Below, piece after piece: positions 40,481-53,832 of a stretch of DNA of 64,000 nucleotides. Within the stretch, counting starts at the first letter, position 1. Each line of letters starts with the position of its first letter. Origin of the DNA: Salinigranum rubrum (GTDB taxonomy: Archaea; Halobacteriota; Halobacteria; Halobacteriales; Haloferacaceae); the NCBI RefSeq assembly GCF_002906575.1, contig NZ_CP026309.1:434001-498000 (forward strand), read 5' to 3'. Below the pieces are notes generated by a model. The model had not been told where the DNA came from. It saw nothing but the letters and a program-made list of their open reading frames with translations, and did not search any database. The translations under genes and the position numbers were made by a program.

Positions 40481-40570
40481 ACCTCCCCTGCGTCCGTGTC
40501 TCACATAATCGTTCGTTTACAATAGGTGGTCGACGACGGTGGAGACGGGCTCACGAGTCGGGTGGTGTCG

Positions 40571-40703
40571 GTCGCCTCCCGGATTGTGAACTACGTCCGA
40601 GACCCTGCGCTCCGCGCAGAACCTCGGTCTAGTTCAAATCCGGTCGGGTCGCACTCACAGAACCCGCCGCGCTCGCTTCGCTCGGCGGTCGGGTTCAGAG
40701 AAG
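40571..40703 (-). repeat. tRNA-Phe tail element: long hairpin ending in a copy of the tRNA-Phe 3' end
   Basis: Read on the minus strand after tRNA-Phe: first a hairpin CCGCCG...CGGCGG with GAGCGAAGCGAGC inside (40664-40688). Next comes CCGGATTTGAACTA (40630-40643), an inverted T-arm. A central hairpin CTGCGC/GCGCAG follows, then GTAGTTCACAATCCGGGAGG (ending near 40571), a copy of the tRNA T-arm and 3' acceptor with one inserted base. The inverted and direct copies pair, so 40579-40643 can fold into one long hairpin. No gene lies in 40481-40703. Confidence 0.75.
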
Positions 40704-41213: not shown

Positions 41214-41339
41214 GGGGCTCGGGCGGATTCGAACCTCGCCCAGACGTGCTCGCTCACTCCGTTCGCTGTGCGCGACTGGTCTGGTTCGAACCACCCTCTC
41301 GTCACGAATTCGTGCTCGCTATCGCTCGCACAGAATTAG
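41214..41339 (-). repeat. tRNA-Val tail element with a 21-bp exact copy of the tRNA 3' end
   Basis: Bases 41215-41235 are identical to 41341-41361, the 3' acceptor strand and T-arm of tRNA-Val, an exact 21-bp direct repeat 126 bp apart. Between them lie GGTTCGAACCACC (41283-41295), a T-arm copy that is itself palindromic, the core GCGAACGGAGTGAGCGAGC (minus strand, about 41250-41268), and a long hairpin GTGCTCGC/GCTCGCAC with outer arms AATTC/GAATT (41308-41337). Confidence 0.8.
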
Positions 41340-47871: not shown

Positions 47872-48050
47872 CGTACCCAGTGGGAAGACTCCCTCTCCCT
47901 GCGAGTTGGTAGTCTTCTGGTATCTAATAAGCCTTCTCACCACCGAACGGTTCCACCAGTCGACCCCAGGTCACCTCGTCAGGTCGTGAACGGCGCGGGA
48001 CCGACGAACCCGCGAGCAATCGAGAGCTTCGCTCCCGGTGACAAAGTGAG

Positions 48051-48210
48051 CGTCCTGACGGAGCGTTGAACTCGCCGAGGCGGTCCTGCTCGCTCACTGC
48101 GTCCGCCGTGCGGGCTGCGACTCGTCTGCTCAACTCTCCGTGTTGCGTCAGCACCCTCGGCAGAGGCGAGTGACACGAATATCACTCGTCGTGTTGCCTC
48201 GGAAGAATGA
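48051..48210 (-). repeat. tRNA-Arg tail element with a copy of the tRNA 3' end
   Basis: 48051-48063 (CGTCCTGACGGAG) is identical to 48211-48223, the 3' end of tRNA-Arg, and the T-arm part continues with few changes (to about 48074). The repeat distance is 160 bp. 48128-48141 carries an inverted T-arm (GCTCAACTCTCCGT) that can pair with the copy. Between them, TGCTCGCTCACTGCGTCCGC (about 48088-48107) is homologous to TGCTCGCTCACTCCGTTCGC in the Val element. The neighbouring 47944-48050 holds no gene. Confidence 0.75.
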
Positions 48211-48283
48211 CGTCCTGACGGAGATTTGAACTCCGGTCCCTGGCTCCGCAAGCCAAGAGGATAGTCCACTACCCTACCAGGAC
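48211..48283 (-). tRNA. tRNA-Arg (GCG)
   Basis: 73 nt on the minus strand. Acceptor GTCCTGG pairs with TCAGGAC (one G-U), discriminator G at 48211. Anticodon stem TTGGC/GCCAG with loop TTGCGGA gives anticodon GCG, reading CGC and CGU. T-arm CGGAGTTCAAATCTCCG. Confidence 0.94.
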
Positions 48284-53581: not shown

Positions 53582-53654
53582 GCCATCGTAGCTCAGCTGG
53601 TAGAGCGCCTCGCTGTTAACGAGGTGGTCCCAGGTTCGAGTCCTGGCGATGGCG
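53582..53654 (+). tRNA. tRNA-Asn (GTT)
   Basis: 73 nt. Acceptor GCCATCG pairs with CGATGGC, discriminator G. Anticodon stem CTCG with loop CTGTTAA gives anticodon GTT. T-arm CCAGGTTCGAGTCCTGG. No tail copy is seen behind it in the 105 bp before the next tRNA. Confidence 0.97.
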
Positions 53655-53759
53655 CTTCTCACGCCTTCTCGTCCCGGGAGTCGTACGTCGCGCTCGCGGC
53701 GTCTCTTTCGCCCTGTGAGTCGCTACTTCTAAGACGGGGGACCTGTTCTCCCGAGACAG

Positions 53760-53832
53760 GGGCCCTTAGCTCAGTGGTCAGAGCGCTCGGCTCATAACCG
53801 GGTGGTCATGGGTTCGAACCCCATAGGGCCCA
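53760..53832 (+). tRNA. tRNA-Met (CAT)
   Basis: 73 nt. Acceptor GGGCCCT pairs with AGGGCCC, discriminator A. Anticodon CAT at 53793-53795, T-arm ATGGGTTCGAACCCCAT. G1-C72 argues against initiator tRNA, which in archaea normally starts A1-U72; an Ile (k2C/agmatidine) tRNA with anticodon CAT cannot be fully excluded. The integrated element begins directly behind its 3' end. SNJ2-type haloviruses are known to insert at tRNA-Met. Confidence 0.95.

Follow-up and report, generated by a model that had tools for sequence, protein, structure and literature searches.

A short hairpin repeat in the tails of haloarchaeal tRNA genes, with ends that match the host gene

In the haloarchaeal genomes examined, about half of the tRNA genes are closely followed by a fast-evolving and apparently undescribed repeat whose ends come from the host gene. 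These tails are probably formed by a short, non-autonomous hairpin repeat specific to Halobacteria, which takes its terminal copy from the target and turns over by recombination between copies.

Four tRNA tails in Salinigranum rubrum

The window (the whole 64-kb stretch of Salinigranum rubrum DNA that was analysed) contains tails behind four tRNA genes, those for Asp, Phe, Val and Arg, and in 4/4 the tail has the orientation of the tRNA. No tail was found in the window behind tRNA-Asn or tRNA-Met, which form a linked pair at 53582-53832.

The host gene of the Arg tail, tRNA-Arg(gcg), lies on the minus strand at 48211-48283 (ARAGORN; Rfam RF00005), and all parts of its tail are on the same strand. 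The first part, D1 (48141-48210), comprises a T-rich start and a first hairpin region and extends up to an inverted T-arm; it was delimited from the sequence and from its homologues in other tails. The second part, D2 (48051-48140), consists of the inverted T-arm, the core hairpin and a copy of the T-arm and acceptor, and is matched by a covariance model at 48055-48140 (E 2.8e-5). The conserved core TGCTCGCTCACTGCGTCCGC occupies 48087-48106 and reads GCGGACGCAGTGAGCGAGCA on the tRNA-sense strand. The 3' end of tRNA-Arg is copied again at 48051-48073, 160 nt from the gene, with 21 of 23 positions identical (91%); this copy runs from the T-loop GTTC to the discriminator over 48051-48071 and agrees at 13/13 positions of the T-stem and acceptor. 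Next to it, on the same strand, 47950-48050 is probably the remnant of a C-type unit, which is fuller in the congeners G001-G003. C-type units, whose hairpin arms derive from the acceptor stem and not from the T-arm, occur behind tRNA-Arg in this genus and behind tRNA-Ala in Haloferax.

The other three tails have the same parts. Behind tRNA-Val(tac), on the minus strand, D1 (41297-41339) is followed by the D2 hairpin (41214-41296; model match 41218-41296, E 4e-18) with the core TGCTCGCTCACTCCGTTCGC at 41247-41266 and an own 3'-end copy at 41214-41234 (12/13). The tail of tRNA-Phe(gaa), also on the minus strand, consists of D1 at 40645-40703 and of the D2 hairpin with an own 3'-end copy (11/13) at 40570-40644. 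On the plus strand, tRNA-Asp(gtc) is followed by D1 (2738-2811) and by a D2 hairpin (2812-2884; model match 2812-2880, E 0.024), which has a class B core and an own 3'-end copy (11/13).

An earlier note on this DNA had claimed that the Arg and Val tails share an inner core and that their flanking 3'-end copies are tRNA-specific. Both claims hold. The core TGCTCGCTCACTGCGTCCGC/TGCTCGCTCACTCCGTTCGC is found twice in the window when shuffled sequences give 0.03 expected matches, which rejects a chance match, and the Val copy fits the end of tRNA-Val, not that of tRNA-Arg. The Asp core, GCGAACGAAGCGAGCG, had been described as the same core in reverse. It is indeed present, but the reversal is only apparent: tRNA-Asp sits on the plus strand, and the core has the same direction along each tRNA.

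Anatomy of the unit

The unit is a non-coding segment of about 75-160 nt. Along the tRNA strand it begins with a T-rich stretch (often TTCT) and the D1 hairpin, which are followed by the inverted T-arm, the core, and a T-arm and acceptor 3' strand that copy the host tRNA up to its discriminator. The T-stem 5' strand is not part of the copy. The inverted and direct T-arms pair to form a long imperfect hairpin with symmetric tandem G.A mismatches and a GNA loop. In the S. rubrum genome there are two main classes of cores, class A (Val, Leu-tag and Ser-tga, with Arg as a divergent relative) and class B (Asp, Gly-gcc and Met). The left, inverted arm also fits the T-stem of its own tRNA (2.92/5 versus 2.18/5, reached in 0 of 5000 permutations), although more weakly than the right end does. 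Several right arms have a T-loop that is not that of the host (TTCACAATC) and then continue with the stem and acceptor of the host itself.

The hairpin is a conserved feature of the tails. In 50 kb of tails there are 91 hairpins of the form GA-NC-NNN-GN-GA, 63 of them with a GNA loop, compared to 24, of which 2 have a GNA loop, on both strands of the 64-kb window. In a set of 33 class A hairpins taken from many species, 94.9% of the cells are paired and ten pairs show changes in both partners, with a covariation score of 0.216, versus 0.092 for shuffled and at most 0.069 for slid alignments. Since these hairpins were sampled by their exact core, the conservation of the core is partly by construction, and only the arms and outer stems count as evidence of constraint. 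The second stem, which is not derived from the tRNA, varies between GCCAG/CTGGC, ATCAG/CTGAT, GCAAG/CTTGC and GGAAG/CTTCC. The stems show compensatory base changes, as those of a structured non-coding RNA would. The covariance model was built from class A alone; a joint alignment of all core classes gives a weak consensus structure. Since the mismatched positions are conserved too, it can be argued that the hairpin itself is recognized, which suggests a putative protein that would bind the tRNA-sense strand of the hairpin, either as RNA or as single-stranded DNA.

The tail could also act in cis on the pre-tRNA, as an RNA element of its 3' trailer involved in termination, tRNase Z processing or sequestration of the trailer, with the T-arm copy masking the inverted T-arm so that the tRNA folds correctly, and with the arrays as by-products. 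The strict tRNA-sense orientation and the compensatory changes are consistent with such a role, as is the fact that some species keep the D1 hairpin without a unit. Folded as RNA, the sense strand has a slight advantage in stability in 24/33 and 16/20 cases, a difference that does not decide between RNA and DNA. However, over half of the tRNAs have no such element, and of two close species one can be without it at the same tRNA. It is not obvious why a trailer element would copy the acceptor strand, and searches of Rfam match only the tRNA genes, so that the tail units belong to no family known there. A role of this kind is therefore unlikely to explain the tails.

Linkage to tRNA genes and distribution in archaea

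The 4.97-Mb genome of S. rubrum was surveyed around the tRNA genes found with Rfam, and around a few further matches. An own-end copy was defined as a match of at least 11/13 to the 13-nt T-stem/acceptor end of the tRNA, within 200 nt downstream of it. Such copies are present behind 20/46 tRNA genes, compared to 18/1988 for the ends of other tRNAs, and the upstream and reverse-strand controls give 0-1 matches. Three own-end copies are located 215-400 nt downstream, as expected from second units. Among the tailless genes are two tRNA-Ala(tgc) copies whose flanks are identical and which probably belong to the rRNA operons.

The exact 20-nt core occurs four times in this genome, each time 71-105 nt downstream of a tRNA and on its strand. 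All 20 matches of the covariance model at E < 0.01 are tied to a tRNA gene or to a displaced tRNA end (20/20), and dispersed insertion, as known from MITEs, PATEs and SMRs, was not seen among them. Two of the 20 are displaced by islands, one is 1.8 kb behind tRNA-Gly(gcc) and one is at tRNA-Pro(cgg). This last tRNA, which has a tail, is detected by ARAGORN and is absent from the whole-genome Rfam RF00005 list; because ARAGORN finds the gene, the idea of an orphan tail away from any tRNA was rejected.

A search of 84,980 species for the exact 26-nt core returned 68 loci, all in Halobacteria. Of 72 exact core copies, 65 are 57-310 nt downstream of a tRNA on the same strand. Four of the remaining seven are near the edge of the locus, where the tRNA is not visible, and three are beside tRNA-Ala-like ends with no gene detected nearby. 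The terminal copy at these core loci fits the tRNA's own end in 49/64 cases, versus 7/3534 for other ends. The earlier note had proposed one family of elements with tRNA-specific ends, in which the end of the target tRNA is recreated, and had stated that a core found just as often away from tRNA genes would refute it. The exact core shows no such distribution, and the own-end counts and the position of the 65 cores strongly support the proposal. The tRNA linkage likewise rejects a general haloarchaeal short repeat, both for the 20-nt core and for the full hairpin, even though looser matches to the core, and the smaller hairpin motif, are also present away from tails.

In the phylum, 392 genomes were searched with the covariance model, and the 77 with a match all belong to the order of S. 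rubrum. Four genomes of this order were listed without a match, and the other 311 were taken to lie outside it, as the listing was sorted by kinship. Among plasmids there was one match, behind a plasmid-borne tRNA-Val and with that tRNA's own end.

Turnover between close species

The tails differ between species of the same genus. The Val tail is present in 4/4 species of Salinigranum, but its cores differ. Behind tRNA-Phe, S. rubrum has one unit and G003 has two, and no unit is present in G001 or G002; the tRNA-Arg arrays of the genus contain T-type and C-type units in differing order. More generally, the units form tandem arrays at a fixed tRNA anchor, as integron cassettes do, with 0, 1 or 2 units at one tRNA depending on the species, and D1 alone in some. 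Draft assemblies may collapse the length of such arrays, as the runs of N in Haloferax larsenii indicate. In this species, these runs together with seemingly repeated blocks of tRNA-Ala(ggc) and tail suggest that a long array may have been collapsed or duplicated in the assembly.

Between Haloferax denitrificans (G193) and G155, whose flanks are about 90-98% identical, the tails of seven tRNAs (Met, Ser-cga, Glu-ctc, Leu-taa, Ala-ggc, Gly-ccc and Ala-cgc) differ by complete units of 80-139 bp. For Ser, Glu, Leu and Ala, which are the four cleanest T-type cases, an exact direct repeat starts at the T-loop GTTC, or one base earlier for Leu, and stops 1-9 nt downstream of where the tRNA is annotated to end. 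The others are less clean: a single change interrupts the copy at Gly, that at Met is divergent, and the repeat of the C-type Ala-cgc unit is 13 nt long. Repeat-mediated deletion is known in haloarchaea (PMC3119063), and in its ordinary form it would explain the losses of units.

In Haloferax, the tRNA-Gly and tRNA-Ser tails consist of few D1 types and few core types, which are found in many combinations behind identical tRNAs. The D1 of the Ser and Glu arrays matches the local flank, so that the moving segment may be just the inverted T-arm and the core. This sharing of D1 by units and flanks would also suit neutral tandem duplication, in which hairpin-promoted slippage, unequal exchange and quasi-palindrome correction homogenise the tails without selection or mobility; repeat-mediated insertions and deletions are common in haloarchaea (PMC3119063). 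However, core classes are shared between unrelated tRNAs and throughout the order, which implies that the sequence moves between loci, and the conserved G.A pairs and GNA loop are not products of palindrome correction. A purely neutral origin is thus very unlikely. Within one genome, the best matches between the tails of different tRNAs are only about 70-90% identical, and no fresh jump between two of them was caught, which counts against the mode of spread proposed below.

Integrases and islands

The units share one trait with integrative elements: the 3' end of the tRNA recurs as a direct repeat at their far boundary, and the tRNA itself is intact. A direct repeat from the T-loop to the 3' end of the tRNA is a known type of archaeal att site (PMC8371274), the integrase islands of this genome use the same tRNA ends as the tail units, and close species differ by precisely one unit. 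The tails could accordingly be miniature integrative elements, remnants or derivatives of proviruses or plasmids, which tyrosine integrases inserted in trans by crossing over in the T-loop, the 3' end of the target serving as attP.

Several results argue against this origin. With 75-160 nt, a unit has no room for an integrase gene. The association of tails with integrases that the earlier note had put forward for checking was not borne out, as PF00589 is found within 20 kb downstream of 1/20 tailed and 4/25 tailless tRNAs. The exact core occurs in no viral contig of IMG/VR and has no match in phages, which led us to reject viral carriage. The T-stem 5' strand, which would be the other half-site of the integrase, is not copied. 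Lastly, att identity would predict one lineage of units per tRNA species, but the same core class is present behind about 20 types of tRNA, each time with the right acceptor. An integrase that swaps att sites leaves the acceptor of the donor in the tRNA, which must stay functional, and can thus, unless it is reprogrammed, move only between equal tRNAs. Because of this single core at many tRNA species and of the lack of integrase association, classical integrase-borne integration is disfavoured, and we consider an origin from miniature integrative elements improbable. The parallel with site-specific integration drawn in the earlier note therefore stands for the att-like boundaries, from T-loop to 3' end, but not for the distribution of the core.

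Islands have apparently been inserted between two tRNA genes and their tails. The tail of tRNA-Ala(cgc) is displaced by about 17 kb from its gene (G000:C1:397400-415600), with two PF00589 matches in between and a further copy of the tRNA end ahead of the displaced tail. That of tRNA-Thr(cgt) is displaced by about 65 kb (G000:C1:1173449-1238673) and is preceded by the exact 3' end of the tRNA; the interval, which is probably a large island, has integrase genes at 1174076 and 1187297, near its far end. These two model matches were considered as tRNA-independent copies, which was rejected because the tails are displaced by integrase-bearing islands.

A model for the spread of the unit

The hairpin repeat with a target-derived end, which we regard as the probable explanation, would spread through insertion, or through template switching, at the T-loop, whose sequence GTTCRAATC is nearly universal, and the target's own 3' end would be copied again in the process. 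Recopying of this end would leave the tRNA intact and give the unit its target-specific ends. The T-loop would be the junction between sequence derived from the element and sequence derived from the target. Since tails with one core class follow many tRNA species, and mostly end in the acceptor of the host, the copy must come from the target, at or after insertion. Later, recombination or slippage between the tRNA-end repeats may remove, duplicate and reshuffle units.

The tail units could explain some of the "partial tRNA" annotations in haloarchaea, and they complicate the calling of att sites and proviruses. Haloferax offers a simple system for studying how a mobile sequence acquires target-specific ends, or how tRNA tails are selected.

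Comparison with known systems

In searches restricted to the open literature, no description of the tail units was found. Several known systems resemble them in part. As in the duplication of tRNA att sites by archaeal tyrosine integrases of the SSV, pNOB8 and SNJ2 types, there is a direct repeat of the 3' end, the tRNA remains intact and tandem occupation is possible. In contrast to these, the tails are gene-free, measure 75-160 nt, contain an inner inverted T-arm, are not associated with integrases and have one hairpin core behind many tRNA species.

REP and BIME sequences are conserved short intergenic hairpins with strand asymmetry. The tails share these traits, but they are tRNA-specific and carry tRNA ends.

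In integron cassette arrays, each unit ends with an imperfect hairpin, the attC site, which contains GTTRRRY and is used by the integrase IntI. The tails are similar in their tandem arrangement behind a fixed anchor, in the imperfect hairpin at the end of the unit, in their conserved mismatches and in their GTT-type boundary. They differ in that their consensus GTTCRAAT does not fit GTTRRRY, that they are gene-free, and that their anchor is a tRNA which the end of the unit matches. It is conceivable, if rather doubtful, that the tails reflect a dedicated enzyme-driven system present throughout the class, which would recognize the tail hairpin, insert at the T-loop and recopy the target end, and thus be a target-copying analogue of integron arrays at about half of the tRNA genes.

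Among published elements of haloarchaea, the PATEs, MITEs and SMRs of Haloquadratum walsbyi (PMC3119063) come closest to the tail units. Like the tails, they are short, multi-copy and transposase-free, have inverted repeats or palindromes, and are lost via short direct repeats. Unlike these elements as described there, the tails are strictly tied to tRNA genes, and their ends match the target gene.
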